Shown: in pieces, positions 40,335 through 57,673 of the stretch
Position numbering within the stretch: position 1 is the first letter of the stretch
Layout of the letters: every line of letters begins with the position of its first letter
NCBI GenBank assembly: GCA_900343135.1
Contig: OPYK01000011.1
Location: forward strand, 1-57,870
Direction of reading: 5' to 3'
DNA from: Atopobium massiliense
GTDB taxonomy: Bacteria; Actinomycetota; Coriobacteriia; Coriobacteriales; Atopobiaceae
Length of the DNA: 57,870 bases
Translations under genes and position numbers: made by a program
Notes under the pieces: generated by a model
What the model was told of the DNA's origin: nothing
Databases searched by the model: none
The model's input: only the letters and a program-made list of their open reading frames with translations

Positions 40335-40367
40335 ATACGATAGTAGCCGTAATGGTTGCTATCGTAT
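40335..40367. other. 14-bp hairpin between divIVA and the CHAP gene
   Basis: ATACGATAGTAGCC and GGTTGCTATCGTAT pair over 14 bp with two wobble pairs and a 5-nt loop GTAAT. GTGTTT follows. It may terminate the division operon weakly or act in the leader of the next gene. Confidence 0.55.
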
Positions 40368-40432
40368 GTGTTTATCTGCTGTTTTGCATGTGTGTGCGCC
40401 CAATTTTGTACAAGATACTAAGGAAGCGTTAC

Positions 40433-42154
40433 ATGAAATTTTTTGCTCGTTCTGTAATTTCTCCATTGTATAAACGTCCTCAACCAACAACGTTTGGTCG
40501 TACTGTTGCGCGCTGTGCCATTATTGGTGCACTTGGTTTTGCAGCAAGTATGCCATGTGCCTTTGCTGCTCCAACGTCGGCTGTAGTATCGCAGCAATCC
40601 GCCGCCTCTGAGGGACACTACACATCAGGTAATTCATCAGCAACCAAATCAGGAGCTGCCAAAACTTCCACTATTGCAGGCAATGACAAGGCTGTTGACA
40701 AAGACAGAACAAGCGACAAAACAGAAAAAAGCTCTAAAGACAGCAACAATGAAATCTCTACAAGTGAACGCGCTGCAGCTGATGCAGCACTAACCTCGCA
40801 AACAACCCCCAAACGCAAGTTATTAGCTGTGAGCATATCGTCTATGGACGACGATGACAATTCTTCTTGGGTAGCGTATCCAGATAATCAGTGGTGCTAC
40901 AAAAACCCTGATGGAAGCTGGGCATATAACAAGTGGGTTCAAGATCTTGACGGGTGGCATTACATCGACGAACACGGTTATGCAGCGCGCGGCTGGTATA
41001 AAATGCCAAATGGCAAATGGTTCTGGTTTAGCGATTCAAACCATAATGCTGCGCACATGGGCGACACCCTCCTTAACGGCTATCATTATTACATCGACGA
41101 ATCCAAAGGCCTTTTGTACGATGCCTGGCTAAAGGATAATTCCGGCAACTGGATGCGTACCGACAAATGGGGAATCATTGCGACGGGGTGGTATTATACG
41201 CCCAATCATAAGTGGTTTTACTTCGACCCACAAACAAATATTGCACAGTTTGGCATTGTAAAACTCAATGGGTACAACTATTACATCGATGAAAACAAAG
41301 GCCTTTTGTATAATGCTTGGTTGCACGACAGCATGGGCAATTGGCAGCGCACCGATCAGTGGGGTATTCTGGCATCTGGTTGGCTTAAGCTGCCCAACAC
41401 CAAGTGGTTTTACTTCGATCCAATAACCTATAATGCGCAATTTGGCAAGGTAACGGTTGATGGTAAAGATTACATCATCGATGAGTCGCTTGGACTGTAT
41501 ATGTCGTGTGCGACAACGTACAACGGAACTACATACCTTTGCAACCACTCGGGCGAGGCAACAGAGCGTGACATCTTTTCTAGTAGCTCGAGCTCTTCGT
41601 TCTCCCCAAGCTCAAGTTCGTCGGTTAATTATATCTATGATGTGCCAAACGTTTACGTAGACAGCCTCATTCGTGTAGCTTCGCGTGAAATTGGCTATTA
41701 TGCACCCGACGATCCTGAGCCGGGTAGCAAATATGGTCGCTGGATGGCTCAGCAAACAGGCGAGCAATGGCTTGCCGGCCCATCAGAAAATGTATGGTGG
41801 TGCGCTATCTTTGTGTCCTGGTGCTTTAACCAGGCAGGCATTAATTGGTCGGCATTGCCAAGCTATAACTGCGATCAGATTCTTTCCCGTGCGCGTAGTG
41901 CAAACAGCGCCCGTGAACTTTCGTCGTTTAGCGAAGCACGTGCTGGCGACGTGGTACTGTACGATTTTAATCACGATGGCAGCTGCGATCACATTGGTAT
42001 TGTTGTGTACAATGATGGTTACACGCTTACAACCATTGAAGGCAATACGTCTTCGGGCGAGGCAGGGTCACAACATGCGGGTAATGGTGTATACCGTCGT
42101 ACCCGTCAATACGATGTGGTACGTGCTATCTTGCGCCCAAATGCGCTTGCGTAA
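40433..42154 (+). CDS. Secreted CHAP-domain peptidoglycan amidase with cell-wall-binding repeats
   Basis: This 573-aa exported protein has a long signal peptide ending near ASMPCAFAA (about residue 44). A Ser/Lys/Asp-rich linker follows to about residue 135. Next come aromatic-rich repeats of the choline/glucan-binding kind (about 145-350), for example GWYKMPNGKWFWF, GWYYTPNHKWFYF and GWLKLPNTKWFYF, spaced roughly 65 residues. After a Ser-rich linker the C-terminal CHAP domain has Cys457 (VWWCAIFVSWCF) and His520 (CDHIGIVVYN). The fold predicts an amidase or endopeptidase that cuts peptidoglycan. AAGGAAG precedes ATG 40433; an upstream frame start at 40352 is unsupported. Its place next to divIVA suggests daughter-cell separation (inference). 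Confidence 0.88.
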   Translation: MKFFARSVISPLYKRPQPTTFGRTVARCAIIGALGFAASMPCAFAAPTSAVVSQQSAASEGHYTSGNSSATKSGAAKTSTIAGNDKAVDKDRTSDKTEKSSKDSNNEISTSERAAADAALTSQTTPKRKLLAVSISSMDDDDNSSWVAYPDNQWCYKNPDGSWAYNKWVQDLDGWHYIDEHGYAARGWYKMPNGKWFWFSDSNHNAAHMGDTLLNGYHYYIDESKGLLYDAWLKDNSGNWMRTDKWGIIATGWYYTPNHKWFYFDPQTNIAQFGIVKLNGYNYYIDENKGLLYNAWLHDSMGNWQRTDQWGILASGWLKLPNTKWFYFDPITYNAQFGKVTVDGKDYIIDESLGLYMSCATTYNGTTYLCNHSGEATERDIFSSSSSSSFSPSSSSSVNYIYDVPNVYVDSLIRVASREIGYYAPDDPEPGSKYGRWMAQQTGEQWLAGPSENVWWCAIFVSWCFNQAGINWSALPSYNCDQILSRARSANSARELSSFSEARAGDVVLYDFNHDGSCDHIGIVVYNDGYTLTTIEGNTSSGEAGSQHAGNGVYRRTRQYDVVRAILRPNALA

Positions 42155-42185
42155 GCGTATACCTAGTTTATAAATCTGTGCATGT

Positions 42186-42250
42186 AGCCATACGGTTTGG
42201 TGCTGCGGCGGCCTTTGTTTCGCTGCCGCGCCCGCCGTGTGGCTTTTTTT
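42186..42250 (+). terminator. Intrinsic terminator of the CHAP gene
   Basis: AGCCATACGG (42186-42195) pairs with CCGTGTGGCT (42235-42244), with one wobble. An inner GC-rich stem (GCGGCGGC with GCTGCCGC) lies inside. T's run from 42244 to 42250. Confidence 0.85.
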
Positions 42251-42805
42251 GTTTACTGCTAACCTACAAATTCAAAATGCAAAATGCAAAATGTCGCGCA
42301 AAATACCGAATCTGTCAGGGGTGCAGCGACATCCCGGGGTGCTTTGGTGCTCTAGCGTGGGTTCAAAATGCAAAATGTCGCGCAAAATACCGAATCTGTC
42401 AGGGGTATCCACTCGATTTTTTCTCTTTTGGGCAAATTTTGGAGCACAGACCCCTGACAATTTCACCTTTTTGCGCGACATTTTGGTTCTAAAGCGTCCA
42501 AAAAAGCAACTTTTTGAGACTTGCCGTCCGCCTACCCCTGACAGTTTCACCTTTTTGCGCGACATTTTGAAAATGTACTTTCCCATTTCGACTAAAAGCA
42601 CCAAGCAACAGAGAATGATTATGCTTTACCTGTTGCGTAACATCTGAATTTTATGGGGCTAAATTTCTCCAAATTTACGTTTATCTTGCACGTATCTTGC
42701 ACGCGACTAGCTTATAAATGAATCATACATGTAGGCACATAAAAGAGACATGAAAAAATATACATCGCTCGCCTAAAACACTGAATATTGTGTTATTAAA
42801 TAAGT
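42251..42805. other. Repeat-rich intergenic region left of the nuclease-like gene
   Basis: This stretch holds array 1 (42288-42568). Further on lie two abutting 11-bp units TATCTTGCACG (42682-42692 and 42693-42703), a TATAAA at 42713-42718, and an imperfect palindrome AACAC-N8-GTGTT at 42777-42794, 11 bp before the next ATG. Open frames span the array on both strands but have no credible start signals. Confidence 0.65.
42288..42568. repeat. Array 1: four 35-bp units in A-A-B-B order
   Basis: Units lie at 42288-42322 (A), 42372-42406 (A), 42450-42484 (B) and 42534-42568 (B). A reads AAAATGTCGCGCAAAA, then core TACCGAAT, then CTGTCAGGGGT. B, read on the minus strand, has the same 16-nt left and 11-nt right ends but core AGGTGAAA. 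Start-to-start distances are 84, 78 and 84 bp, leaving spacers of 49, 43 and 49 nt. A transcript could fold A onto B with a symmetrical 8-nt internal loop. The same arrangement recurs at 44193-44473. Confidence 0.95.
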
Positions 42806-44116
42806 ATGGATATTATACTTGACTACATAGAATCGCTTGCTCTTTGGCGCGCACATCGTATCGCCGCTTCGCCTACACGTATGTCTCGAAATCCTATTAT
42901 GCGAGACGACTATGCGGGAGTGGGTGATCCGACGTGCAGGGTTAATGTTCTTGCGACTCCACTCACTGCAGTACCGCCTATTGCGTTCGATGCTTGTTCT
43001 CAAGTGCCCGTACGTGCCATTAATGCCTATATACGTGGCACTCTGGATAGTTTTACTCTAAGCGACGAGTATGTATCCTACGCGGAAAAGAGCCGTCACT
43101 TTACTATATCGGCTCTAAATGTAGCAAATCGTTATATATCGAATGTGAACTCACGGAAGCGATTGCACTCTGTACGTTTTGTTCCCGATTTTGACGATAA
43201 GATTGCGGCACATATTCTTATCTCACGTGCTCATCGTGGATTAGACACCAAGTACAAGGATTTTCGTTGTGTAAGTGGGACAGTGCCGAGCGGAAATTAC
43301 TATAAACTAATAATCAGCTCTTCGCAGTTGAGGCGTTACTGTCTCCCAAAAGAGCTTACCTTGCATATTTTGTCACCAGAGTTGATTGTAACTCGTGCTG
43401 CGTATGTTCTTAAAAAATTGTGTTATGTCGCGCCGTGCTGTGAAACATCGAAAGCGCAGCTGCTGCTTGTTCACAATATTATTGCGCTGGTAGATGAGCT
43501 TTGTGGAACGTATGGATATGACCCGCTTACAGGAACAGCTGTTACGTATGGATTAAATCCTCTTACCAGCCTATCTAAAATTAAGCATCAAGTAAGTAAG
43601 TTCAAATATATCCAGGGAGGCTCGACGCTTCTTGCGGCTCTTAAATATTGTCACAATAATGTAGCGTCTCCTTTTGAGGAGTTTATGGCATCAGCACTGA
43701 TGCTTCCCGAAAAATTGGGCGGCATTGGGTTTCCTCAGCTTGAGATAAATAAAACTCAGAAACTTAATAGCAGTAGTGCACTTATTCCTGAGCATAGCTG
43801 GATTACGCCAGATTTGAGTTCAAAGGCTCTAAAACTTGTCATCGAGTGCAATGGACGGGCATACCACAATAGTAGTGAGGCGTTTTTGGAGGATCAGCGG
43901 CGTATTCGCGACTATGCATCGCTTCACGAGCGGCATGTTCCACTGAGCGTGAGCGATGTAAACAACACTATGGTATTGAGTCGAACTATGCTTGGAATAG
44001 TGGCGGCATGTCAAGATAAGCTGGGTCGCTCAAAGACATATCGAATACGTACACGAATCAACAATCCGGACAACCAAATAGCAAGAAAGATTATGATAGA
44101 TCTTCATCTTTCTTGA
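42806..44116 (+). CDS. Protein of uncertain function, possible Vsr/DUF559-like nuclease C-terminus
   Basis: This 436-aa protein stands alone between two identical-type repeat arrays. The C-terminal third resembles the Vsr/DUF559 branch of PD-(D/E)XK nucleases: SPFEEFMASALMLPEKLGG (candidate first acid), then LVIECNGRAYHN (acid on a strand, followed by a conserved His) and a helix FLEDQRRIRDYASLHE. The N-terminal two thirds are unrecognised; it has a basic patch around FRCVSGTVPSGNYYKLIISS. From memory, similar proteins occur in several copies in Coriobacteriia genomes; this was not checked. No HUH transposase motif or DDE triad is visible. ATG 42806 has no good ribosome site and later starts are possible. 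By eye, codon use is more AT-rich than in the division genes, compatible with transfer. Confidence 0.5.
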   Translation: MDIILDYIESLALWRAHRIAASPTRMSRNPIMRDDYAGVGDPTCRVNVLATPLTAVPPIAFDACSQVPVRAINAYIRGTLDSFTLSDEYVSYAEKSRHFTISALNVANRYISNVNSRKRLHSVRFVPDFDDKIAAHILISRAHRGLDTKYKDFRCVSGTVPSGNYYKLIISSSQLRRYCLPKELTLHILSPELIVTRAAYVLKKLCYVAPCCETSKAQLLLVHNIIALVDELCGTYGYDPLTGTAVTYGLNPLTSLSKIKHQVSKFKYIQGGSTLLAALKYCHNNVASPFEEFMASALMLPEKLGGIGFPQLEINKTQKLNSSSALIPEHSWITPDLSSKALKLVIECNGRAYHNSSEAFLEDQRRIRDYASLHERHVPLSVSDVNNTMVLSRTMLGIVAACQDKLGRSKTYRIRTRINNPDNQIARKIMIDLHLS

Positions 44117-44507
44117 AGCATTGGCAAAAGGCTAACGGCATAAAGAAATGCAGACTAGCGTAAAGCGTCGAAATATGCCAACCTGCAAACTCAAAATGTC
44201 GCGCAAAATACCGAATCTGTCAGGGGTGCAGCGACATCTCGGTGCGCTTTGGTGTTCTAGCGTGGGTTCAAAATGCAAAATGTCGCGCAAAATACCGAAT
44301 CTGTCAGGGGTATCCACTCGATTTTTTCTCTTTTGGGCAAATTTTGGAGCACAGACCCCTGACAGTTTCACTTTTTTGCGCGACATTTTGGTTCTAAAGC
44401 GGCAAAAGAAGCAACTTTTTGTGACTTGCCGTCCGCCTACCCCTGACAGTTTCACCTTTTTGCGCGACATTTTAAAAAACGGGCTCGGTGCCATGTGAGT
44501 AAGCATG
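44117..44507. other. Repeat-rich intergenic region right of the nuclease-like gene
   Basis: This gap between two convergent genes holds array 2 (44193-44473). Open frames cross it on both strands but have no credible signals. The rest is short unrecognised sequence. Confidence 0.65.
44193..44473. repeat. Array 2: second copy of the A-A-B-B array
   Basis: Units lie at 44193-44227 (A), 44277-44311 (A), 44355-44389 (B) and 44439-44473 (B), with the same 84/78/84 spacing as array 1. The 43-nt central spacer is identical in the two arrays; the two 49-nt spacers differ by about four bases each. By my count the arrays differ at about 10 of 281 positions. All four A units in the window are identical. 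Similarity continues about 20 bp to the left (AACCT-CAAA-TCAAAATG), where array 1 has two extra 7-bp CAAAATG units. The offset between arrays is 1905 bp. Confidence 0.95.
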
Positions 44508-44540
44508 AAAAAAGCGCGCGAGCCGAAGCCCACGCGCTTT
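44508..44540 (-). terminator. Intrinsic terminator of the giant surface protein gene
   Basis: On the minus strand AAAGCGCGTGGGC pairs with GCTCGCGCGCTTT (13 bp, two wobbles) around a TTCG tetraloop, followed by a run of T. It starts 12 bp after the stop codon. Confidence 0.88.
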
Positions 44541-44552
44541 AATTACGACAAC

Positions 44553-47500
44553 TTAGTTCTCGTACTCGTTGCCTTTGTCCTCGTGTTTGCGCTTCTTCGT
44601 GCGCGCGCCAGCTACGAGGCTAATCATGCCAGCACCCATACCAAGAATCTCGGCCGCTGTTGCCGCAAGCTGAGAATCTCCCGTTTGCGGTAGTCGTGCG
44701 TGGCGTGCTGCACGTACGCGCGGACGTGCCGGTGCAGGAGTTTCTGCCGGCGCGGGCGCAGGTGCTGGCGCAGGTGCGGCAGGCGCTTCAACGGCAGGGG
44801 TAAGCTCTGTCCATGGAATGCTTTCGCCTCCGCCATAGGAGCCACCACCGTGCGAGCCTCCAGTTGTCACATGCGGACGCTTAACCACGATGCGCACCGT
44901 TATCTCTTTCTTAAGGCCATACGTCGAGCGACCATATTTGTCAGGATCGCGTTTATCAACAGCTTCAAACGTAAGCTCGATAGTGCGCTCCGTATCGCCT
45001 GGCTTCCAATCACTAATATGCGGCGTGCCACTTATGATGCACGTGTTGCCTTTGCTGCAATCAACGCTTATGCCATCGGGCAGCTTCGTGCCTTTTTTAA
45101 GCGTGGGCTTGTTTTGAGTGTCACCCACAAGGCGCGTGCTGAACGACTGCTCGGCTTCGGTTGTGGTTTCTAGCGTAAAGTGCGCTACAGGTAGCTTCGT
45201 AAACTTAGCGAGGTATACAACAGTGTTATTTTTCTCGTCGGAGATTTTCTGCCACTCAAAGAAGGTGTAGCCGGGATTTGCAAGCGTTTGTGGCACGGGA
45301 ACATTTTGGATTCCTTGCACGCGCTTTTCACGGACGGCTGGATCCTGTGCCAGAAGTGCATTAGGATCTACAACGTCTCCTTTGTGCACCCAAAATACGT
45401 TAGATTGAGATCCAATACGCCCATTCTGGAGCGTTGGCATCGACCAAAACACTACTTTGGTGTAGTTCTTCTTGATGAACGCATCTTCAGGCGTACCATC
45501 TGCGGGCGCATTTTGTGCTGCAATCACGCGCGGCAGCACGCGGATATTTACCGCGACGTCTTTCGTTTGAATCTTGCCCGTATCATCCTTGTAGTTCAGC
45601 CCAAAGTGGACAACATACATGCCCGGCCTTGATGCATTGGGATTGAGCTGTAGCTCTGTTGAAGGCGCCGCAAATCCAGCAAAGCGATCAGATTTCATAA
45701 ACGCTTCCAATCCAGGAATCGTACTATTGCCTTGTTTAATGTCGCGGATGAGCTTGTCATAATTTGGCACTTCATCATATACGCCAATAACTATGTCGTC
45801 TTTTGGCTTAATGTCTGGGAGTTCGGATTGTTTTGCGATGAAGGTGTAGGCATGCTTCGGATTCTTGAACGCTTTCTCTCTTTCGGCGGCATCGGTAACA
45901 AGCTGACCCTTATTGTCGTACACGTCCCAATCAACAAAGCTTCCGAGCTGGGCTTGTAAGGCTTGCATATATGGCGAGATGTCGCCTGCTTGCGCATTCG
46001 CGTAGTACACGTACGGACGCGACGAGCCGTTTTGCCAGGTGTGCTTAGGAGCCGGCAGGAACATCACGGGAACGTCGCCGTCGCGCATGGTATCTTGCTT
46101 GCTTGCGTCAATGACGTAAGGCTGCTTGTCATACTTCGCAACAAAGGTGTACGTTGCGTCGGTGAAGGCTTTGCCGTACTTCGCTTCGATTTTCCGTAAG
46201 GTCTTACCAAGGTTTTCGGGCTTGAGATCTTCTGCCGGAACCGTAACGCTTATTGTGGTAGGCGTAGAGCCTCCCTCTGAAGCACCAGGGGTGCTACCTG
46301 GAGTTTCATTTTGGACGAGCGTAGTGAACGGCGTGAACGCGTCGAGGCTTCTGCGGTAACGTAGCGAGCGCATAAGAGTGCTTGCGTGTGCGTTTGCACC
46401 AGGCTGCGGCGCGACACCCGGCTGCGTGCTGCCTGCTTGGGTGCCGCCTTGGCCTGGCGTGTTCTGCGTAATCACTAGTTGCCAACCTGTGAATACGTAC
46501 CTGAACTTCTTACCAGTTTGAGCGTCGATTTGATTTTCCTTCGCAATGACGGTAGGCGTGTCAAGGACGATATCGGTATTCTTCCTTACATAGTATGTAG
46601 CTGTACCAACAAGCGTACCTTTAGGCGTACCTTTAGTATCAATATCCGAAGAGAATACAACCTTTGCATAGTTGTCCTTAAATTGCTTCTCCTCCTCGGT
46701 ATACTGTACCGGCTTGCTTGGATCAGTTTGAGCTTGCTCTTTTTCTTTGATATTATCAGCAACCTTCTTACTATAAGTGTCTGAAAGTACCTTGTCCATC
46801 ACGTGCAGAACGCTTGTGAGCTTGTACACAATAGGATCTGCCATATCGGCATGCTTCACGGTTATGAAAATTGGTACCGTGTACACACCAGCGGCATCGG
46901 AGCTTGGCCTCTTCTTGTCATTCTCGCCGTATTGTACTTTGATTTCGTATTTGCCGTCTTTCTTCGCAATGTTATCAAGCTCAAGGGCGCCCATGTTGTT
47001 GATAAAGTCTTTTGCATCAGGAACATCGCCATACTGCGTAATAAAAATCTCGTTTTTAACGGAAGGCGTGAGCACCTCTTTTTGATGTGCTACAAACTCT
47101 TGGAATGCATCTTTTGAATACCATGCTTTGGGATCGGTCTTGCGCGCATTGTTCATGCTTGGAACAAGTGTTGTATTATCCATTGACGACTTTGTCCAGT
47201 CAGGCGTTGTGCCTGTACCATACAACTGCTTGCTCAAGTACTGCAAAATAGATTCAGTCGTGGTATCGCCTTGCTTAATTGGCACACCGTTCTTATCAAG
47301 CTTAGAAATGTCCATGTCCTTCTTGATGTAGAAGACCTTAGGACCAGTTGAACCATCAGCCCATTTGCGGCCAGGCGCCGGCTTAAAGGACACGACGACC
47401 GAGTCAGCAGGAACAGTGCCATCTACTGGATGCGTCACAATATAGTTGATCTTTTCATATACCGCCTTGTAGATAAGGTCGCCCTTCGTCTTTGAAACCA

Positions 47501-50500
47501 CAAGCGTGTCAGCATCGGGCGTTCCGAACTTAATGTCGCCCGCGCCAAGCTCGTTCTTATCGTCTTGTACAACGGTTTCTTTCGAAGGAACCAGCTTCCA
47601 ACCAACAAATTTGTAGTGGTAACCATCCTTTTCGTAGTCTTGGTTAAGCATCTTAGGGACGCGGACTCGTAGCTCTTGGTCTTTCGCAACATAGTAATCA
47701 ACCGAATTCTTATCCTCGTCGCCAATAATGGTGCCCTTAGGCTGCAGTTTTTCGTTTTTGTCGGTAATAAAGGTAACCTTGCGATAATGGCCGTCAAACA
47801 CCTTATAGTCAATAGGCTGCTTGTCTTGCGCGGGCTTATTCTTGCCGTACAGCACGCCGTATATAACTTTGAGCTGCGAGTTGAGCATAAATACGCTCTC
47901 GCTGTCCATGTCACGGTACTTAATCGTTACCTTAAGCGGCACAAGATAGGTTCCCGCAATTTTGGACTTCGGTGCCTCACCCACAAATTCAACCTTGTAT
48001 GACTCAATGTTCTCTTTACCAGGTATAGCAACACCGTTCTTCATGAGCAGGTCTTTGAGGTCCTGATCATTCTTGATGAAGTCGTTTGCCGTGGGCACCT
48101 GTGTGTTCTGAATGATGGCCTGGTATTGTTCAATCGTCTTAGGCTCGGTGTGCGCCTTTTGATGTGCAACAAACTCTTGGAAGGCGTTATTCGACTTCCA
48201 GCCATCAGCACCAGCGCCATCTTTCATGCTCTTGATGAGCGTAATACCGTCCATCGAGGACTTCGACCAGTCGCTCTCATAGCCCGCGAGCTGCGATCCG
48301 AGCACTTGTAGGATAGACTTGGTGGTAGTGTCGTTATCTTTAATAGGTCTGCCGTGCTCATCGAGGCGGGAGATGTCCATGCCTTTCTTAATGTAGAGCA
48401 CTTTAGGACCAGTTGAGCCATCCGCCCACTTGCGACCAGGCGCCGGCTTAAACGATACAACAACTGAATCTTCGGGTATTGTTCCGTCGGTAACCTTGGT
48501 TACGATGTAGGGAACCTTCTTATATTGTGCTTCAAAGACAATGCTTTGCTGAGCCGTGAAGGTAAGCTGTCTGTCGGCAGCGTTAATGGTTTGAGGAGAG
48601 GTGCTCGTACCTTCTTCTACCTTTTGCTTCCAGCCCGTAAAGACGTAGTGATAGCCGTTAGCTGTGTAATCAAGACCGGATACTTTCGGTATGTTGATGG
48701 TGTAGTTTGCGCCCGTCTTCTTAAAGGTAAGGTATTGAAGCTCGCTTTGCGTATGATCGGCAGACTCGCTTGCGCCTGATACCTGACCAGGCTCTTCTGT
48801 CTGGCTTGTTTCGTGACCTTGTGCATCTACCACCTTTTGCTTCTTGCTTACAAAGGTAATAGTTGTGTACTGGTTCTTGAGCGTTTCATCTTTTGGAGCA
48901 TCCTTAGAAGACAGAACATCACCAAGCACATTTAAGTATCCAACCAGGTTGTATACCTTTTGGTGGCTTTCTGAAGCTGAGTCTTTATAGGTAACTGTTA
49001 CCTTAAGCGGCACGGTGTAATTTGCTGCTTCTTTAGACGAAGGCTCTTTAGAGTAGCTAACTTCTACCTTTTCGACATTATCTTTTTTAAGCTCACTAAT
49101 ATTGCTGATAAACGTCTTTGCATCGGGGATTTGTGTACCCTGAATAATTGTTTGAGCATTTCCAAGTGTTGGTGCTACATAGTCTGTTTGCTTAGCTACG
49201 TATTCTTGGAATGCATTATTTGCAGTCCAGTCGCTATCTTTAACATCACTTATAGAAGCAATGCCTTCCATTGAAGACTTAGTCCAGCCAGTATTATCAA
49301 ATAGCTGGTCTTTGAAGTAATCAATGATGGAGCTATAGTGCTTCTTTTGTCCATTCTCAACAATATCAAAGGCAAGTTTATGGACGTCTTGGCCTTTCTT
49401 TACATAGAAGACCTTAGGTCCGGTTGTACCATCTTTCCACGTACGACCAGCAGCAGGCTTAAATGCTGCAACAACAGAATCATCAGGTACTTTCCCGTCA
49501 TCAGTCTTTGTTGTGATGTAGGGAACCTTCTTATACTGTGCTTCAAAGACGATGCTTTGCTGAGCCGTGAAGGTAAGCTGTCTGTCGGCAGCGTTAATGG
49601 TTTGAGGAACCACACCAGAAGCCGGTGCTGCTACCTTTTGCTTCCAGCCAGTAAAGACGTAGTGATAGCCGTTAGCTGTGTAATCAAGACCGGATACTTT
49701 CGGTATGTTGATGGTGTAGTTTGCATTATCTTTCTTAAATGCAAGATAGGTAAGTGTACCTTGTTCATCTGCACCTGAAAGCTGTCCTTGATCTTCTTTA
49801 GTTTGCGTTTCGTGTCCTTGCTCATCTAGCACGGGCACTTTGTTTGTTACAAAGCTAATTGAGGTGTACTTGTCTTTGAGCGTTTCATCTTTTGGAGCAT
49901 CCTTAGAAGACAGAACATCACCCAGTACGTTTAAGTATCCAACCAGGTTGTATACCTTTTGGTGGCTTTCTGAAGCTGAGTCTTTATAGGTAACTGTTAC
50001 CTTAAGCGGCACGGTGTAATTTGCTGCCTCTTGAGATGAAGGCTGCTTTGTATATTCAACGCTTACATTGGTTACGTTATCTTTTTTAAGCTCACTAATA
50101 TTGCTGATAAACGTCTTTGCATCGGGGATTTGTGTACCCTGAATAATTGTTTGAGCATTTCCAAGTGTTGGTGCTACATAGTCTGTTTGCTTAGCTACGT
50201 ATTCTTGGAATGCATTATTTGCAGTCCAGTCGCTATCTTTAACATCACTTATAGAAGCAATGCCTTCCATTGAAGACTTAGTCCAGCCAGTATTATCAAA
50301 TAGCTGGTCTTTGAAGTAATCAATGATGGAGCTATAGTGCTTCTTTTGTCCATTCTCAACAATATCAAAGGCAAGTTTATGGACGTCTTGGCCTTTCTTT
50401 ACATAGAAGACCTTAGGTCCGGTTGTACCATCTTTCCACGTACGACCAGCAGCAGGCTTAAATGCTGCAACAACAGAATCATCAGGTACTTTCCCGTCAT

Positions 50501-53500
50501 CAGTCTTTGTTGTGATGTAGGGAACCTTCTTATACTGTGCTTCAAAGACGATGCTTTGCTGAGCCGTGAAGGTAAGCTGTCTGTCGGCAGCGTTAATGGT
50601 TTGAGGAACCACACCAGAAGCCGGTGCTGCTACCTTTTGCTTCCAGCCAGTAAAGACGTAGTGATAGCCGTTAGCTGTGTAATCAAGACCGGATACTTTC
50701 GGTATGTTGATGGTGTAGTTTGCATTATCTTTCTTAAATGCAAGATAGGTAAGTGTACCTTGTTCATCTGCACCTGAAAGCTGTCCTTGATCTTCTTTAG
50801 TTTGCGTTTCGTGTCCTTGCTCATCTAGCACGGGCACTTTGTTTGTTACAAAGCTAATTGAGGTGTACTTGTCTTTGAGCGTTTCATCTTTTGGAGCATC
50901 CTTAGAAGACAGAACATCACCCAGTACGTGTAACGAACCTGTAATGTTGTACACGCGCGTGTGCGTAGCATCAGCACTGTCTTTGTAGGTAACTGTTACT
51001 TTGATAGGTACCGTAAGGTTTGCAGCAGCATCAGTTGCAGGCGCATCTACAAACTCAGCCGATATATTCGTAAACGGCTTATCGGTGCCGCCTGTAAAGT
51101 CGCTGATATTTTTAACAAAGTCAATTGCATTAGGCGCCGCAGTACCTTGGATAATGGTCTTTTCTACGCCACCAACAGGGTCAGTATACGGTGTTTGACG
51201 GGCTACGAACTCTTGGAAGGCGTTATTTGACTTCCAACCGTCAGCTCCCGCTCCCGTAGTCATGCTATCGATAAGCGTAATGCCATCCATGGACGACTTC
51301 GTCCAGTCGCCCGTGTAACCATACAGCTGTTCACCCAGTACTTGAAGGATTGACTTTTTAGTTTCACCAGGCTTAATAGGAACGCCATGTTCGTCAAGCT
51401 TGGAAATATCCATGCCCTTCTTAATGTAGAGCACTTTCGGTCCCGTGGATCCATCTTTCCACGCACGACCGGCTGCAGGCTTAAACGATACCACCACGCT
51501 ATCAGGTGGCACGGTACCGTCTTCGCTCTTCTGCACAATGTAGGGGATTTTCTCATACATTGCTACATACGCGGCGTTCTCAGTGGGCGTAATGTCTTTG
51601 TAGTGATCTTTTGGACCAATATCAGGTGTAAATTCTTTCCACATAAAGTGCGCCGGTGCAGCTGCAGGCGTTGAATCGGGCGTGGTAACTTTTTTCCACC
51701 CGCGGAACACGTAGTGATATCCGTTGGCTTCAAAGTCGCGTCCTGCCGCGGCCGGTACGTCGAGTTTGTATGTGCCGGCAGGTGTAGTAGATGTACCTGC
51801 ATATACGTACGCAGCAAGTGTGTCAAAATCACCTTCCTTTTGCGCAGTTTCGCGCCCTGTCATCACACCTTGTTCGCGCTTCGACTTAAAGGTGTACTTC
51901 TTATAATTGGCAGCTACGCTCGCAGGATCGTATTTATCCAGCTCGCCCTGCAAAAATGCGCGGGGCATAATTGTGTAGAAGAACGGCACCTTTTTCTTTA
52001 CGCGGTGGCCATCTCTACCTGCTTCAACTTCAATAAATACCTTGTGCTCGCCAGGCGTTGTATTGTCAAGCGAAGCAACAACGTTGCCTTTTTCGTCGAG
52101 GAAACGGTATGTAGCCAGTTTACCAGGATTGCCGTCTTCTTCATTTTTGTACTGATCGGCATTTTGGATAAGGCTCTTCGCGGTTTCGTCTGCCGCAAGT
52201 ACAGAATTGCCTGGCAGCACATAACGATGCGCCACCGCCACAGGATCAATCATCTCAAAGTGCTTAACGTAAGTACGGTCTTTGGCATCTTTACCATCAA
52301 AGCTAAAGCCCTCGGTAGCAACAAAGCCCTTGTCGGCAACAGGTGTGGGCGCCTTGATAACGTTTACCTTGTATTTGTCCAAAACAACCACGTTGGTAAG
52401 CGTGTCAAGCGTTTCGGTTCTTGTGTTACCATGACCATCAGTTATAACGCGCGACAGGCGGCCATTTTGGTCGGCGGTGTAGTTAACTTTGTAGTAGCCC
52501 TTCGGCGCAGCTGCGTTGGGGTCAGATCCTACAAAGGCATTTTCTGTCTTCTTAAAGTGCGCAATGTATACAATTTTATGGTCGAAGGTTTGCGAATTTG
52601 CAGGTAGGCGGCTTGCGCCTTCGTATTTTTGGCCGTCTGCATAATAATCTTCAGATGTCCAACCTACAAACGTGTAGCCTTCTTTTGCAACAGGCGTAGG
52701 CAGGGGCAGTTGATACGCCTTTGTACCGTTTACTGCATCAAGTACAATTTCAGACACGTTTTGAGCGTGCTCGGTGGGAGCAAATGCAAAGGGCTTAAGC
52801 TCTCCTCCAGGCTGCGCTGAAGTTCTCGAAACAACCTGCTTATTGCTATCAACCACAAGTTCGGTTGATTCCGTTTTAAATACTAAGCGCGAATAATTGG
52901 TAGGTGTTACCTGCGTATCGTCTTTGCGCGAAAGAATACGCACGTCATCATATACAAAGGTATAGTCGTATGTGTCATTATAGCTACCGTCAGTATTTGG
53001 CTTAATCACAAACTGGTGCTGTGTTGGCACGCCTTTTTTCAGCACATAGCCCGGGATTGTTTTGGCTTCAACCACGTTATAATTGAGCTTATTTGTGGTG
53101 TAAATAGACGCATTGCCCTCTTGGGGTTCTGCAGGCGCAATTTCTTTACCCGCTGCATCTACATAATGCACCGTGTAGCTGCGCTTGGCGTAGGGCTCGT
53201 ACACAAATTCAGCGCTGTTTTTGCTCTCGTTGGTATCAACAACAAAGGTGGAGTAGGTGTGATCGGGGAAATACTCATCATCACGATAGCCTGCTTGTAC
53301 CGAGGTAGAAGAGCCGGGGCGTAAATCGTGGAGCGTTTCTACGCGCACGTTGTGGATAAGGCTCTCAAGTTTTGTACGATCACCGGTGCGGTCTGCTTCT
53401 TCCTTTGCGGCTTCGTACTGCTTAATGGTGCAGCCAGGATTGAGGAACACCTGACGTACGGTACCGGTAACACGCTTGTCTTCAATCCATTCGGCACGCA

Positions 53501-56500
53501 CTTCCAAATTGTCTACAACGGGCGTGCTAAAGGCAAACGGCAGCCAGTGTGCATTGCCTTGCTTATCAAGTGTTTTTACTTGCCAGCCATAGAATACATA
53601 TCCGGGGCGCTCCGCCGCAAGCGGGAATTCGTCCTTTGGAATGTCCTTTTTGTCGCGAACAGTGCCGTCATTTTTTGCTTTGTGTGCGCACGCGCCATGC
53701 TTTACAAATACATCCGATGTAGAGCCATCTCCACGGTTCATGTCCACCGTAATTTTGTGTGTAATTTGCGACGGCACCCAGTGCGCATAGAGCGAAAGAC
53801 CTGCGTCGGGAACTACACGCTTAGTGGTTTGCTTCTTGATGTAGTCGATAATGTCCTGTGCGGTCATTGCCGTGCCGTCGGATTTCATGTGCGGGATGAG
53901 TACCTGCGAGCCGTTTGCATCAAGCGCCCAGCCGTCGAACACGTAGTCTTTGGGCAGATTATCGGGTCGTTTGATGAAGTAGTCTTTGCCATTGAGCTGG
54001 AAACGATAGGTACCAGGGAACTGCTCGGGCGCTTTTCCTTCAGGCGTATACGGCGTGATGGTGGGGGTGAGCGTGGTGCCGTCGTCGCTTATGTGTCCGC
54101 CGGCAATAAAGTCTTTTTTGAAGAGATCGGTGTCAAAGGGCGACTGTATGGTAGCAGCATGTCCTTGCGCATCTTCAACATCTGACGATGCGTCGTTGTG
54201 GAAGCGTATGGTAGGCGTTGTGCGATCGTAGGTCCACACAAGAATGGCACTAAAGGGGTACTTAACAGGTACTTCTTTGTGGTTACCCTCCTTATCAACT
54301 ACTTCTTTGTGGTTACCCTCCTTATCAACTACTTCTTGTATGCATTCGCCTTTGTTGTTTTTCTTATAGGTAAAGTCAAATGCATCCTTCCATTTTTCGT
54401 AAACGTACGCCTTAAAGCGCTCTTTTTCGCCTTTATCTTTTTCTGTGTCACCTACAAGTGCAACAGGTGATTCGCCTTTCGCTTTAAGATATGCACAATA
54501 GTCTTGATACAGCAGCTCATACACGCATTGCATGTGCGTTTTTGGTATCGAGGCATTTGGATCGAGTATGGGCTTTTGCTCTGAATTGCCAAAAAAATAC
54601 TCGTCTTCATTATTCCAAATAGAAGGATCTCCACTTGATGCACTTTTGTGCGGCGCATACCCAATAAGCTTTGGTGGTTCAAATCCATCCCAACCAAGCA
54701 AACTCGATTTGTGATAATTTCCATTTCTATATATATAATTATACTGGGTGTAAGACATCACGCTTAGTTTGTACTGCGGTTTTGCGCTGGGATCTTTAAG
54801 TCGTGCCGCAGCAGATTCAGGTGTTTCTACACGTATCACCACATGAAAAGGTCCATTTGATGGTTCACCCGATTCAAATTGCCTCGTGTCCATAGGAAAA
54901 GGCGTAAAAAGCCGCTGGTAGGGGTTGTAGTCGTAGCTACCTACCTCGGTTGTAGAGGTGCCTTGATGGTAATGCTCACTAAAACAGAAGAAATCTTTTT
55001 TGTTGTAAAAGTCTGCGCCTTTTACTTCACGCGTGTAATACACATCTTCAAAACCAAAGCGATAGGGCGGCGTATCAAACACATTATCGCCATCTGATTT
55101 GCCTTTATGCATGTTGGTAGCATCACCAAGTATGTATAAGCCCATATTCGCCTGAGGCTCTTCTTTTGAACCATCGATTTCAGTTCCGTCTATATCATGT
55201 GTTCTATCAACAGGGCTATAGGTAATTTGAGATGTCTTTGGAAATTCTATACCAGGGCGCAGCTCTTCGTTAAAGCGCACTTTAATAGCGTATGCAGAAT
55301 CATGTTTATCTTTATCGTATGTATATTTTTTCCCGCCTATCGTAACCGTGGTGCTGCTGTCTCTTGCATTACCCTTATAGTCGTGATCGCCAGCTATGGG
55401 AGGATTGGCGTAGGGATTTGCATCTGTACTCTTCTTCGACCCATCAGGCTTAGCAAAGTAGTAGGTATACACCTGGCGGTCATACACCGCATTCAGCACG
55501 GTTGTGCCATCGGGACGCAGCTTATACAGCGGACGCATCTCTTTTGCACCAAACCACTCAGGAGCTTCGCCTGCGTTCAGCTTATTTTCTAGCTGGTAGT
55601 TTGGCTTATAAAATCTATCGAACTCTTTATCGCTCGCAAGCACTTTTTCAACGTCAGCTTTTATACGATCATTGGTGGTATCCAGCCCGTCAAAGTGCAC
55701 CTGCTTGCGCTCGTCTGCGGTAAGTGTGCCTTTGATCACACGATATTTCCCGTTGAGCATATCGGTTGGTGCGTCAAACGATTTGTTGTACTTCGTGAAT
55801 TTATTTTCGATATTCTCGTCGCTTTTGCCTGTGCGCTTTACACGGCCCACGTAGTCGTAGTTGTCAAGGCTGTTGGGATCGTCGGGCTTTACCAGGCGCG
55901 CTTTTTGCACCCACACGTTTACCCAGTAGGTTGTTTCCGTGTGTTCTGGTTCCCAGTGCGCCACAAATTTAACGTCGTTATCAGGCAACACCTGCTTAGT
56001 AAAGTTTGGATCGAGCGATGGCGCCTCGTGCTCCTTGCCCTTAATGCCTTTTACGGTCCAGCCCGTAAATTTGTAGCCGTCACGTGTTGGGTTGTTTACC
56101 TCAAGCATCGTAGCGCCAAATTTGTACACATGGCCCTGAATAGCCGTGCCGCCTTGCACGTCGTAGGTTACTTCGTGCTTTTTAAGTAAATAGCGCAGCT
56201 CAAATACCAAATGTTTGGATTCTTTATGAGGCGTTGTTTGCGATGCGTCAGGTGTGGTACTTGATGCCTCATCCTCATCGGCTTCGGTGTAGTTTGCGTC
56301 GTCGGGGATAGAAGAGCCAACCAAATTGGGCTCGGGGCTATAGCCCTCGATGTTTATCGGCTGTGCAAATACCTGCGAACCTACAAGACCAACCGCTTTA
56401 CTTACGCATACAACGTGCTCATGTCCTTCGGCATCTTTCAGCTTAACTTTGTTGGTTAAGTCGGTGTATTCAATAAACTGTTTTGAGCGCTTATCGTTGG

Positions 56501-57617
56501 GATCGGTGATATGCGGATCATAATCGGGGTTTTGCAGCATGTGGCGAATGTAAAACGTAACCTGCTTGGGGTTGTACTCAAGGGTGTACTCGCTTACAAC
56601 TGTGCCATTTTTGCTCAAGCGTTTGTTAATATTTTTTTCGATAAGAGCTTTATCAACTTTAATGTACGTTTGCACCAAACCATTGTGCTCGGTATCAAGC
56701 ACAAACTTGCCGTGCTCGTCTTTTACGTAGTTTCCACGTGGCGCGCGGTAGCCTTTGGTGGTTGGCACCGGAATATACACGCCATCATCTGCGTTATCCG
56801 TAATTTGATTAAGCTTATCTTCGGTAAATGAAAACTCCGTTGGCTGTAAGAGCTGCTTTGTTTGATTGCCTGCAACGCTGTAGTGCACCGTAAAGTTGTA
56901 AATCGTTTTACGCTGGTTTTCAGGGGGTGTAACCTGGCTATTTGCAGTTGGCAGATTTTGAGCTTCCTGGTGTTTAGTATTTGGCTTTACTACCTGCTGG
57001 TTTGATGTGTCGTTTTCTTTTGGGCGTGTTGGTGTGGTGGGTGCCTGGCCTTGTGGTGTTTCGCCAGAAGTCAACGTGCCTGCAGACACGGGATTTTCCG
57101 TTGGTTGGATTGAAGCATGTGTTGTTGCAGCTGTGCTACTCGATTCTGCATTATGCGCGCCCGTGGGCTGTGCTGCGGGCTCATCATTGTTCGCATGCAA
57201 TGGTGCGGAGGCGTTTTGGGTGGCAGGCTCTGCGGTGCGATCCGTGCCTGCTGCGGCGCTCTTACTGCCGTTTGCTGCGGGCGTGCCTTGCGCTGCTTGT
57301 GTGCTTTTAGCGCTGTGTTTTGCTGCTTTCGGGTGGCTTGCGGCGTCTGTTGTACCTGCAGCAGCTTTAGCAGCAGTGTTACCTGCAACGTCAGCTGCTG
57401 GAGATTGCGCACCTTGGTTTGCAGGAGCTACAATTGCATCGTGCAGCGACGCATCAGATTCTTTAGTTTGCTGCGCGGCAAGCGCAGGCGTTGCTATGGC
57501 AAGTGTTGAGACAAGTGCAACTCCCGCTGCAACACCAATCGGCGCTTTTTCTGCCTTGTGTACTTGAGACACTTTTGCATGAGCAGTAAGCTTTTGCATT
57601 CTGTTTTTCTTAACCAT
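44553..57617 (-). CDS. Giant LPxTG-anchored repeat surface protein (4354 aa)
   Basis: This very large exported protein is probably an adhesin or surface stalk. A long signal region (about residues 1-48, ending ATPALAA) is followed by an Ala/Thr/Pro/Ser-rich stretch to about 235. A Flg_new/InlB-type repeat (VTYDVQGGTAIQ to FVAHWEP) is near 483-556, another (ITVDMNRGDGS to RAEWIE) near 1285-1376, and a MucBP-like segment (YTVHYVDAAGKEIAP) near 1476. Six tandem modules start near residues 1883, 2235, 2568, 2901, 3255 and 3610, plus a partial one at 4031. Each combines GYHYVFTGW-type and Rib-like segments (VPLKVTVTYKDSA). The C-terminus has a Pro/Ala stalk, LPQTG at 4309-4313 (DNA 44679-44693), a hydrophobic helix and a KKRKHEDKG tail. 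ATG 57617 is favoured; 57638 (TTG) and 57599 are alternatives. No sortase gene is in the window. Confidence 0.93.
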   Translation of the reverse strand: MVKKNRMQKLTAHAKVSQVHKAEKAPIGVAAGVALVSTLAIATPALAAQQTKESDASLHDAIVAPANQGAQSPAADVAGNTAAKAAAGTTDAASHPKAAKHSAKSTQAAQGTPAANGSKSAAAGTDRTAEPATQNASAPLHANNDEPAAQPTGAHNAESSSTAATTHASIQPTENPVSAGTLTSGETPQGQAPTTPTRPKENDTSNQQVVKPNTKHQEAQNLPTANSQVTPPENQRKTIYNFTVHYSVAGNQTKQLLQPTEFSFTEDKLNQITDNADDGVYIPVPTTKGYRAPRGNYVKDEHGKFVLDTEHNGLVQTYIKVDKALIEKNINKRLSKNGTVVSEYTLEYNPKQVTFYIRHMLQNPDYDPHITDPNDKRSKQFIEYTDLTNKVKLKDAEGHEHVVCVSKAVGLVGSQVFAQPINIEGYSPEPNLVGSSIPDDANYTEADEDEASSTTPDASQTTPHKESKHLVFELRYLLKKHEVTYDVQGGTAIQGHVYKFGATMLEVNNPTRDGYKFTGWTVKGIKGKEHEAPSLDPNFTKQVLPDNDVKFVAHWEPEHTETTYWVNVWVQKARLVKPDDPNSLDNYDYVGRVKRTGKSDENIENKFTKYNKSFDAPTDMLNGKYRVIKGTLTADERKQVHFDGLDTTNDRIKADVEKVLASDKEFDRFYKPNYQLENKLNAGEAPEWFGAKEMRPLYKLRPDGTTVLNAVYDRQVYTYYFAKPDGSKKSTDANPYANPPIAGDHDYKGNARDSSTTVTIGGKKYTYDKDKHDSAYAIKVRFNEELRPGIEFPKTSQITYSPVDRTHDIDGTEIDGSKEEPQANMGLYILGDATNMHKGKSDGDNVFDTPPYRFGFEDVYYTREVKGADFYNKKDFFCFSEHYHQGTSTTEVGSYDYNPYQRLFTPFPMDTRQFESGEPSNGPFHVVIRVETPESAAARLKDPSAKPQYKLSVMSYTQYNYIYRNGNYHKSSLLGWDGFEPPKLIGYAPHKSASSGDPSIWNNEDEYFFGNSEQKPILDPNASIPKTHMQCVYELLYQDYCAYLKAKGESPVALVGDTEKDKGEKERFKAYVYEKWKDAFDFTYKKNNKGECIQEVVDKEGNHKEVVDKEGNHKEVPVKYPFSAILVWTYDRTTPTIRFHNDASSDVEDAQGHAATIQSPFDTDLFKKDFIAGGHISDDGTTLTPTITPYTPEGKAPEQFPGTYRFQLNGKDYFIKRPDNLPKDYVFDGWALDANGSQVLIPHMKSDGTAMTAQDIIDYIKKQTTKRVVPDAGLSLYAHWVPSQITHKITVDMNRGDGSTSDVFVKHGACAHKAKNDGTVRDKKDIPKDEFPLAAERPGYVFYGWQVKTLDKQGNAHWLPFAFSTPVVDNLEVRAEWIEDKRVTGTVRQVFLNPGCTIKQYEAAKEEADRTGDRTKLESLIHNVRVETLHDLRPGSSTSVQAGYRDDEYFPDHTYSTFVVDTNESKNSAEFVYEPYAKRSYTVHYVDAAGKEIAPAEPQEGNASIYTTNKLNYNVVEAKTIPGYVLKKGVPTQHQFVIKPNTDGSYNDTYDYTFVYDDVRILSRKDDTQVTPTNYSRLVFKTESTELVVDSNKQVVSRTSAQPGGELKPFAFAPTEHAQNVSEIVLDAVNGTKAYQLPLPTPVAKEGYTFVGWTSEDYYADGQKYEGASRLPANSQTFDHKIVYIAHFKKTENAFVGSDPNAAAPKGYYKVNYTADQNGRLSRVITDGHGNTRTETLDTLTNVVVLDKYKVNVIKAPTPVADKGFVATEGFSFDGKDAKDRTYVKHFEMIDPVAVAHRYVLPGNSVLAADETAKSLIQNADQYKNEEDGNPGKLATYRFLDEKGNVVASLDNTTPGEHKVFIEVEAGRDGHRVKKKVPFFYTIMPRAFLQGELDKYDPASVAANYKKYTFKSKREQGVMTGRETAQKEGDFDTLAAYVYAGTSTTPAGTYKLDVPAAAGRDFEANGYHYVFRGWKKVTTPDSTPAAAPAHFMWKEFTPDIGPKDHYKDITPTENAAYVAMYEKIPYIVQKSEDGTVPPDSVVVSFKPAAGRAWKDGSTGPKVLYIKKGMDISKLDEHGVPIKPGETKKSILQVLGEQLYGYTGDWTKSSMDGITLIDSMTTGAGADGWKSNNAFQEFVARQTPYTDPVGGVEKTIIQGTAAPNAIDFVKNISDFTGGTDKPFTNISAEFVDAPATDAAANLTVPIKVTVTYKDSADATHTRVYNITGSLHVLGDVLSSKDAPKDETLKDKYTSISFVTNKVPVLDEQGHETQTKEDQGQLSGADEQGTLTYLAFKKDNANYTINIPKVSGLDYTANGYHYVFTGWKQKVAAPASGVVPQTINAADRQLTFTAQQSIVFEAQYKKVPYITTKTDDGKVPDDSVVAAFKPAAGRTWKDGTTGPKVFYVKKGQDVHKLAFDIVENGQKKHYSSIIDYFKDQLFDNTGWTKSSMEGIASISDVKDSDWTANNAFQEYVAKQTDYVAPTLGNAQTIIQGTQIPDAKTFISNISELKKDNVTNVSVEYTKQPSSQEAANYTVPLKVTVTYKDSASESHQKVYNLVGYLNVLGDVLSSKDAPKDETLKDKYTSISFVTNKVPVLDEQGHETQTKEDQGQLSGADEQGTLTYLAFKKDNANYTINIPKVSGLDYTANGYHYVFTGWKQKVAAPASGVVPQTINAADRQLTFTAQQSIVFEAQYKKVPYITTKTDDGKVPDDSVVAAFKPAAGRTWKDGTTGPKVFYVKKGQDVHKLAFDIVENGQKKHYSSIIDYFKDQLFDNTGWTKSSMEGIASISDVKDSDWTANNAFQEYVAKQTDYVAPTLGNAQTIIQGTQIPDAKTFISNISELKKDNVEKVEVSYSKEPSSKEAANYTVPLKVTVTYKDSASESHQKVYNLVGYLNVLGDVLSSKDAPKDETLKNQYTTITFVSKKQKVVDAQGHETSQTEEPGQVSGASESADHTQSELQYLTFKKTGANYTINIPKVSGLDYTANGYHYVFTGWKQKVEEGTSTSPQTINAADRQLTFTAQQSIVFEAQYKKVPYIVTKVTDGTIPEDSVVVSFKPAPGRKWADGSTGPKVLYIKKGMDISRLDEHGRPIKDNDTTTKSILQVLGSQLAGYESDWSKSSMDGITLIKSMKDGAGADGWKSNNAFQEFVAHQKAHTEPKTIEQYQAIIQNTQVPTANDFIKNDQDLKDLLMKNGVAIPGKENIESYKVEFVGEAPKSKIAGTYLVPLKVTIKYRDMDSESVFMLNSQLKVIYGVLYGKNKPAQDKQPIDYKVFDGHYRKVTFITDKNEKLQPKGTIIGDEDKNSVDYYVAKDQELRVRVPKMLNQDYEKDGYHYKFVGWKLVPSKETVVQDDKNELGAGDIKFGTPDADTLVVSKTKGDLIYKAVYEKINYIVTHPVDGTVPADSVVVSFKPAPGRKWADGSTGPKVFYIKKDMDISKLDKNGVPIKQGDTTTESILQYLSKQLYGTGTTPDWTKSSMDNTTLVPSMNNARKTDPKAWYSKDAFQEFVAHQKEVLTPSVKNEIFITQYGDVPDAKDFINNMGALELDNIAKKDGKYEIKVQYGENDKKRPSSDAAGVYTVPIFITVKHADMADPIVYKLTSVLHVMDKVLSDTYSKKVADNIKEKEQAQTDPSKPVQYTEEEKQFKDNYAKVVFSSDIDTKGTPKGTLVGTATYYVRKNTDIVLDTPTVIAKENQIDAQTGKKFRYVFTGWQLVITQNTPGQGGTQAGSTQPGVAPQPGANAHASTLMRSLRYRRSLDAFTPFTTLVQNETPGSTPGASEGGSTPTTISVTVPAEDLKPENLGKTLRKIEAKYGKAFTDATYTFVAKYDKQPYVIDASKQDTMRDGDVPVMFLPAPKHTWQNGSSRPYVYYANAQAGDISPYMQALQAQLGSFVDWDVYDNKGQLVTDAAEREKAFKNPKHAYTFIAKQSELPDIKPKDDIVIGVYDEVPNYDKLIRDIKQGNSTIPGLEAFMKSDRFAGFAAPSTELQLNPNASRPGMYVVHFGLNYKDDTGKIQTKDVAVNIRVLPRVIAAQNAPADGTPEDAFIKKNYTKVVFWSMPTLQNGRIGSQSNVFWVHKGDVVDPNALLAQDPAVREKRVQGIQNVPVPQTLANPGYTFFEWQKISDEKNNTVVYLAKFTKLPVAHFTLETTTEAEQSFSTRLVGDTQNKPTLKKGTKLPDGISVDCSKGNTCIISGTPHISDWKPGDTERTIELTFEAVDKRDPDKYGRSTYGLKKEITVRIVVKRPHVTTGGSHGGGSYGGGESIPWTELTPAVEAPAAPAPAPAPAPAETPAPARPRVRAARHARLPQTGDSQLAATAAEILGMGAGMISLVAGARTKKRKHEDKGNEYEN
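48879..49877 (-). repeat. 999-bp tandem module repeat, copy c
   Basis: This segment and the next (49878-50876) are in-frame, 333-codon, nearly identical tandem copies inside the giant gene. A short patch around 49025-49080 differs from 50024-50079 and changes the protein from NVEKVEVSYSKEPSSKEA to NVTNVSVEYTKQPSSQEA. Most of the remaining sequence is base-for-base the same. Confidence 0.92.
49878..50876 (-). repeat. 999-bp tandem module repeat, copy b
   Basis: This is the partner of 48879-49877; each copy begins at the same GAGCGTTTCATC point and the period is exactly 999 bp. Near-identity over this length points to recent duplication or ongoing gene conversion, since the neighbouring modules (a, d, e, f) are clearly diverged. 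Confidence 0.92.
54271..54330 (-). repeat. 30-bp perfect tandem duplication in the giant gene
   Basis: Two identical 30-bp units at 54271-54300 and 54301-54330 encode the repeated decapeptide VVDKEGNHKE. The repeat keeps the frame and lies in the N-terminal third, outside the large modules. Likely slippage-prone. Confidence 0.9.
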
Positions 57618-57673
57618 TATCCACACCCAATCGAACAAAGATCAAAAAATGTCCACCTATATAAATCATATAA

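Follow-up and report, generated by a model that had tools for sequence, protein, structure and literature searches.

Gene and repeat arrays at the locus

One locus of Atopobium massiliense raises the question of what a lone gene does between two nearly identical arrays of inverted repeats, and how gene and repeats are related. The window, by which we mean the whole stretch of 57,870 bp that was analyzed, contains the following features of this locus.

42282..42573: left array, a 292-bp block with units A1, A2, B1 and B2
42288..42322, plus strand: unit A1 of the left array (pattern match)
42372..42406, plus strand: unit A2 of the left array (pattern match)
42450..42484, minus strand: unit B1 of the left array (pattern match)
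42534..42568, minus strand: unit B2 of the left array (pattern match)
42806..44116, plus strand: lone gene for a 436-aa protein, with a predicted EDxHD/Vsr-fold nuclease and an N-terminal region of unclear fold
43661..44026, plus strand: C-terminal Vsr-like nuclease domain, approximately residues 286-407, predicted from fold and invariant residues
44187..44478: right array, a 292-bp block in the orientation of the left array
44193..44227, plus strand: unit A1 of the right array (pattern match)
44277..44311, plus strand: unit A2 of the right array (pattern match)
44355..44389, minus strand: unit B1 of the right array (pattern match)
44439..44473, minus strand: unit B2 of the right array (pattern match)

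The gene is a free-standing ORF of 436 codons located between other genes. The two 292-bp blocks that bracket it are in the same orientation and are 96% identical, spacers included. Each array contains four 35-bp units in the order A-A-B-B, spaced by 84, 78 and 84 bp over a span of 281 bp. A preliminary description, made from the sequence alone, had claimed this architecture around one gene and had noted that the spacers were conserved between arrays, unlike those of CRISPR. The architecture held exactly and the spacer claim also held. A CRISPR array was excluded, because the spacers are conserved between both arrays and the units lie in both orientations.

The sequence of the A units is AAAATGTCGCGCAAAATACCGAATCTGTCAGGGGT, and that of the B units is AAAATGTCGCGCAAAAAGGTGAAACTGTCAGGGGT with single-base variants. 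A and B units have common left ends of 16 nt and common right ends of 10-11 nt, and they differ in the middle part. The unit ends described earlier (16 nt on the left, 11 nt on the right) were confirmed as common ends. Folded as single-stranded DNA, one array gave -70.4 kcal/mol (z = -7.9 versus shuffles); the predicted fold was a nested double hairpin, much more stable than shuffled sequence. No Rfam match, to either an RNA element or an intron, was found at 41500-45500.

The full unit pattern was matched eight times in the 1.55-Mb genome, all eight at this locus, and a control pattern was not matched at all. Besides the two full arrays, the genome contained no dispersed full copy of this repeat and only two partial remnants, located at C9:7651-7692 (90% identity over 42 bp) and C9:39288-39310. 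Since just two full arrays exist, the window's own repeat family is probably low-copy, either young or waning.

The protein very likely carries a Vsr-fold nuclease domain

Pfam, NCBIfam, PADLOC and PHROGs did not assign the window protein to any family with confidence. The protein itself matched none of the DUF559 (PF04480), Vsr and REase_MTES_1575 (PF18741) models, and a sequence search found no solved structure below E 0.05. Among 29 diverse homologues, weak matches were obtained to REase_MTES_1575 (six homologues, best 8.9e-5), DUF559 (three, best E 0.0016) and Vsr (one, 0.19), and none matched a Y1 transposase. Three family members were weakly similar to the PADLOC model for a methyl-directed restriction enzyme. 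Residues E291, D336, E347, H354, D363 and R366 were invariant or nearly so in the 29 homologues and invariant in a second homologue set (n = 30).

Predicted structures were then compared with known ones. The C-terminal model of the window protein superposed on the catalytic domain of I-Bth0305I with Z 9.8 and 2.3 Å rmsd over 96 of 98 residues, on NGO0050 with Z 9.6 and on Vsr with Z 7.6. A better model, that of a homologue (mean pLDDT 90), gave Z 9.9 with NGO0050, 9.5 with I-Bth0305I and 8.6 with Vsr. Foldseek returned no significant E-values; support for the fold comes from the second structural alignment, the conserved residues and the weak sequence matches. Because superpositions, conserved residues and weak family matches of homologues agree, a Vsr-fold, EDxHD-type nuclease domain is very probable, with nuclease activity inferred from predicted models. 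The earlier suggestion that the gene encodes a Vsr/DUF559-like nuclease was supported by this fold comparison.

The N-terminal part remained less clear. Residues 1-207 of the homologue model weakly resembled the AbiEi antitoxin (Z 6.3, 124 aligned) and Rv2827c (Z 4.3). The model of the window protein is poor at residues 25-160, the AbiEi resemblance is tentative, and no N-terminal fold was established.

Many homologues are bracketed by arrays of their own

Homologues were found in 123 of 140 genomes of the family Atopobiaceae, with up to 12 per genome, and at a stricter cut-off in 190 of 298 Coriobacteriia genomes. A contig search with the window protein alone returned no loci, and a close homologue subset returned 29. 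Flanking sequences of 42 Atopobiaceae homologues were compared with those of 304 control ORFs chosen at a distance of 1.5 kb or more. Two-sided matching arrays (score ≥40) were detected at 21 homologues versus three controls, and strong two-sided arrays (score ≥60) at 16 versus none (Fisher 1e-16). After more loci were added, 42 of 71 homologues had two-sided arrays. The rate was lower in other Coriobacteriia families, with 5 of 18 sampled homologues (among them L267, L279 and L284). About one in two Atopobiaceae homologues, and 13 of the 18 sampled from other families, had no clear two-sided array.

The flanking arrays occur in direct or inverted orientation. Their motif differs from locus to locus, each protein subfamily having its own repeat. 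In a comparison of 42 loci, array sequence was in common in 24 of 34 pairs at 70-95% protein identity, in 9 of 107 pairs at 55-70%, and in none of 711 pairs below 55%. The pairs are phylogenetically non-independent, a few loci entered twice and some came from one conserved locus. As a trend, without a formal test, array similarity follows protein identity and is lost below about 55%. These results showed that Coriobacteriia, which are gut and mucosal bacteria, possess a large family of lone Vsr-like nuclease genes (nuclease by predicted fold), many of which lie between copies of a palindromic repeat of their own.

Three arrays are dispersed as discrete elements

Dispersal was examined for three arrays: a 232-bp element of the window genome, the array of the G039 homologue and that of the G104 homologue. 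All three were dispersed as discrete palindromic elements of 180-230 bp, in a dozen or more copies.

The window genome encodes a second homologue, 48% identical to the window protein and associated with different repeats. This paralogue and an acyltransferase-like gene are jointly bracketed by two copies of the 232-bp element (L011 4000-7592); the chance of two copies bracketing a given gene so closely is about 2e-4. The genome contains approximately 19 copies plus one solo arm, with inverted arms 149-150 bp apart. Fifteen aligned copies have about 230 bp in common, with the ends TTACAAAA...TTTTGTAA, and bear terminal inverted repeats. None of these 15 fetched copies overlapped an ORF of 200 aa or more, indicating intergenic positions. 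In this genome, which is 95% complete, no transposase was found between paired ends, all pairs being 149-150 bp apart. No target-site duplication was recognized around the precise element. As a separate observation, four copies (L041, L063, L065 and L067) lie inside an apparent third inverted-repeat family (GAAGACTGAAGAGCAAT...ATTGCTCTTC).

For the G039 homologue, the array was found at about a dozen places in G039 and G038 and at none in three congeners. The G104 array was searched in one genus of 31 species. It gave 25 hits in G104, 29 in G100, 17 in G094 and 16 in G083, whose homologues are 100%, 93%, 88% and 73% identical to the G104 protein. Of the remaining 27 species, 26 yielded only 0-3 short hits; eight of these 26 have a gene that is 64-68% identical. 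The exception was G099, with 19 hits and no nuclease gene in its assembly. A contig of G099 begins within the array that lies directly downstream of the locus of the nuclease gene (L287 1-200), so a missing contig is the likely explanation. The idea that G099 holds a repeat population without its own gene was dropped, as the assembly breaks in the array at the gene's locus. Within this genus, G104-type repeats are thus limited to species with a closely related gene, except G099. With the G099 break exactly in the downstream array, it is also possible that such arrays hide nuclease genes in draft genomes.

In both G104 and G100, the dispersed copies span about 180 bp, with sharp ends that the copies have in common, and most element sites are common to both genomes. 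One intergenic site is occupied by the element in G104 and G099, whereas alignment showed no element there in G094, G090 and G083, and gap length indicated its absence in G100 and G112 as well. Comparison of orthologous loci revealed presence and absence of an element at one site, with insertion ends not fixed to the base. In G099, the flanks of this site (L205, L211; C3:41884-47783) are about 4.3 kb apart, suggesting that something larger was inserted beside the element.

In one clade, the gene stays at its locus under purifying selection

In the clade of G104, orthologues at 68-93% identity occupy one chromosomal locus and are followed by the same gene, and each species has one closely related gene. 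Their dN/dS between species was 0.12-0.17, indicating purifying selection. No conserved partner gene was found, since no neighbor family was common to more than 7 of 43 loci (the commonest was an ABC transporter ATPase). No match was obtained in phage or plasmid collections. On the strength of the conserved locus, low dN/dS, lack of a conserved neighbor and lack of phage or plasmid matches, the G104-clade gene is likely resident, selected and vertically inherited, with only the repeats multiplying. The window gene itself has no sampled relative in its genus.

Comparison with known systems

The known case in which a stationary, host-maintained enzyme replicates bacterial repeats is REP/RAYT. 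REP/REPIN sequences and RAYTs (TnpA-REP), together called REPtrons, comprise palindromic intergenic elements of inverted units that can form hairpins; the enzyme gene lies beside its own repeats, is chromosomal and vertically inherited, whereas spreading is confined to the repeats; where a genome has several such genes, their repeats differ, and gene and repeats co-evolve (PMC3116915, PMC8049555, PMC8266576). The system described here is alike in that cognate repeats lie beside the enzyme gene (16/42 vs 0/304), that three arrays are dispersed in intergenic space as inverted pairs (intergenic position examined for the 15 copies of the 232-bp element), and that the gene, in one clade, is not multiplied with the repeats. 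It differs in its enzyme, which is a predicted Vsr/EDxHD-fold nuclease and not an HUH/Y1 transposase, in the lack of a GTAG-type tag in the window's A or B units, and in its larger elements (180-300 bp), lower copy number (tens) and occurrence in Coriobacteriia. RAYT identity was ruled out, as both the HUH/Y1 enzyme and the GTAG tag are absent.

The EDxHD homing endonuclease I-Bth0305I has the same catalytic-domain fold and the same order of acidic and histidine residues. In contrast to such enzymes, the nuclease gene here is free-standing and intergenic, not in an intron or intein, and is tied to dispersed palindromic repeats, with the repeat spreading and not the gene. A typical homing endonuclease was ruled out on these grounds (no Rfam intron match). 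Vsr very-short-patch repair endonuclease, DUF559 (PF04480) and REase_MTES_1575 (PF18741) belong to the same nuclease superfamily, but the window protein carries roughly 200 additional residues at its N-terminal end; the literature searched contained no description of a repeat association for these three families. MITEs are likewise short non-coding elements with terminal inverted repeats and many intergenic copies. Here, however, the bracketed gene is a putative nuclease, and no autonomous transposon with these ends was seen in the 95% complete genome. Type IV toxin-antitoxin systems (AbiE) were also considered, and no adjacent toxin gene was found (no neighbor family common to more than 7 of 43 loci).

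The closest description is that the system works like REP/RAYT with an unrelated enzyme. No description of it was found in the open-access literature searched, and it has no defining enzyme in common with the known analogue. Grouped by life style, it could possibly count as a variant of REP/RAYT. The earlier statement that no element with such an architecture had been described held in that literature; subscription journals were not covered.

Proposed mechanism and alternative explanations

The analysis showed bracketing by arrays, a nuclease-type fold, divergence of arrays along with the protein, three dispersed repeat families and, in one genus, restriction to species with the cognate gene. 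On balance, and by a modest margin, we favor the view that the gene and its arrays belong to a large REPtron-like family built on an unrelated enzyme, in which the nuclease promotes repeat copying. Binding, cutting and copying are inferred, and for copying by the nuclease there is no biochemical or genetic evidence. In this view, a chromosomal Vsr-fold (EDxHD-type) endonuclease would recognize its own palindromic repeat, whose inverted units may fold into a long hairpin or cruciform, and would cut or nick there. The cut or nick would promote copying of the 180-300-bp element to further intergenic positions, some of them next to the enzyme's own gene. The gene would not spread with the repeats and would stay at a conserved locus under purifying selection (one clade examined), and the repeat and its recognition would co-evolve. 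A bolder reading, which we consider only slightly more likely right than wrong, is that a class-wide Vsr-fold superfamily in Coriobacteriia arrived independently at the REP/RAYT life style: a nuclease that stays in place and is kept by the host would replicate its own palindromes by a new, HUH-independent chemistry, with fast protein-repeat co-evolution.

According to the preliminary description, a repeat family might be linked to its own nuclease gene, in a parallel to REP/RAYT that uses a different enzyme. This proposal was supported by the nuclease fold, the recurrent two-sided arrays with different repeats, the co-divergence and the genome-wide dispersal of three repeats; mobilization by the nuclease remains inferred. 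Two outcomes that would have refuted it were not seen: arrays without a link to the gene family (in one genus, repeats were limited to cognate-gene species), and the gene at a conserved locus without arrays (orthologues at one conserved locus keep them).

Four other explanations were weighed. The gene and both arrays could form a mobile element, either a composite transposon or a homing cassette, with the arrays as its ends and the dispersed arrays as non-autonomous or solo remnants. Arrays bracketing the gene in direct or inverted orientation and element-sized dispersed copies speak for it. We consider it unlikely, as the 68-93% identical orthologues keep one locus and downstream gene, the two homologues of the window genome are just 48% identical with different repeats, and phage or plasmid matches are lacking. 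It is very unlikely that the repeats represent common MITEs or REP-like sequences whose movement depends on another enzyme (an IS transposase or a RAYT in trans), with the nuclease exploiting or restraining them. The terminal inverted repeats of the 232-bp element are MITE-like, but its paired ends, all 149-150 bp apart, enclose no transposase, and this explanation accounts neither for repeat identity tracking nuclease identity nor for each nuclease lineage having its own repeat. An unseen transposase acting in trans is possible and was not excluded.

We give equally little credit to a DNA-binding regulator with an AbiEi-like N-terminal part, for which the arrays would be operator clusters of a regulon and the nuclease fold would serve for binding only. 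The weak matches of residues 1-207 to AbiEi and Rv2827c and the intergenic position of the arrays fit this idea. Against it, copies have 180-230 bp in common, including spacers and sharp ends, indicating duplication and not independent site evolution; the catalytic-type residues are invariant; a Z of 6.3 may arise from a common arrangement; and arrays also lie downstream of the gene. A defense or toxin-like nuclease using the flanking arrays as self-control sites is suggested by the nuclease fold, the multiple copies, the rapid diversification and the weak PADLOC similarity of three members. It is all but excluded by the lack of a conserved partner gene among the neighbors and by arrays dispersed far from the gene.

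If the favored REPtron-like reading is true, a second, unrelated enzyme fold has the REP/RAYT life style, and the strategy arises by convergence. Open questions about REP/RAYT, namely why the enzyme is kept and how repeats copy, would become testable in a new system. It would also provide a new family of sequence-specific nucleases, with many natural specificities paired to readable targets, and would account for the numerous lone nuclease genes and repeats that common gut bacteria carry.

Neighboring genes in the window

Upstream of the locus, the product of 40352-42154 (plus strand) looks secreted; it contains choline-binding-like repeats and has a CHAP domain at its C terminus (Pfam E 1.7e-9). 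Downstream, 44553-57638 (minus strand) is an ORF for a 4361-aa surface protein that ends with an LPQTG sorting signal. Two antisense ORFs within it (49338-49778 and 50337-50777) translate identically, indicating an internal duplication in the surface-protein ORF, 999 bp apart.
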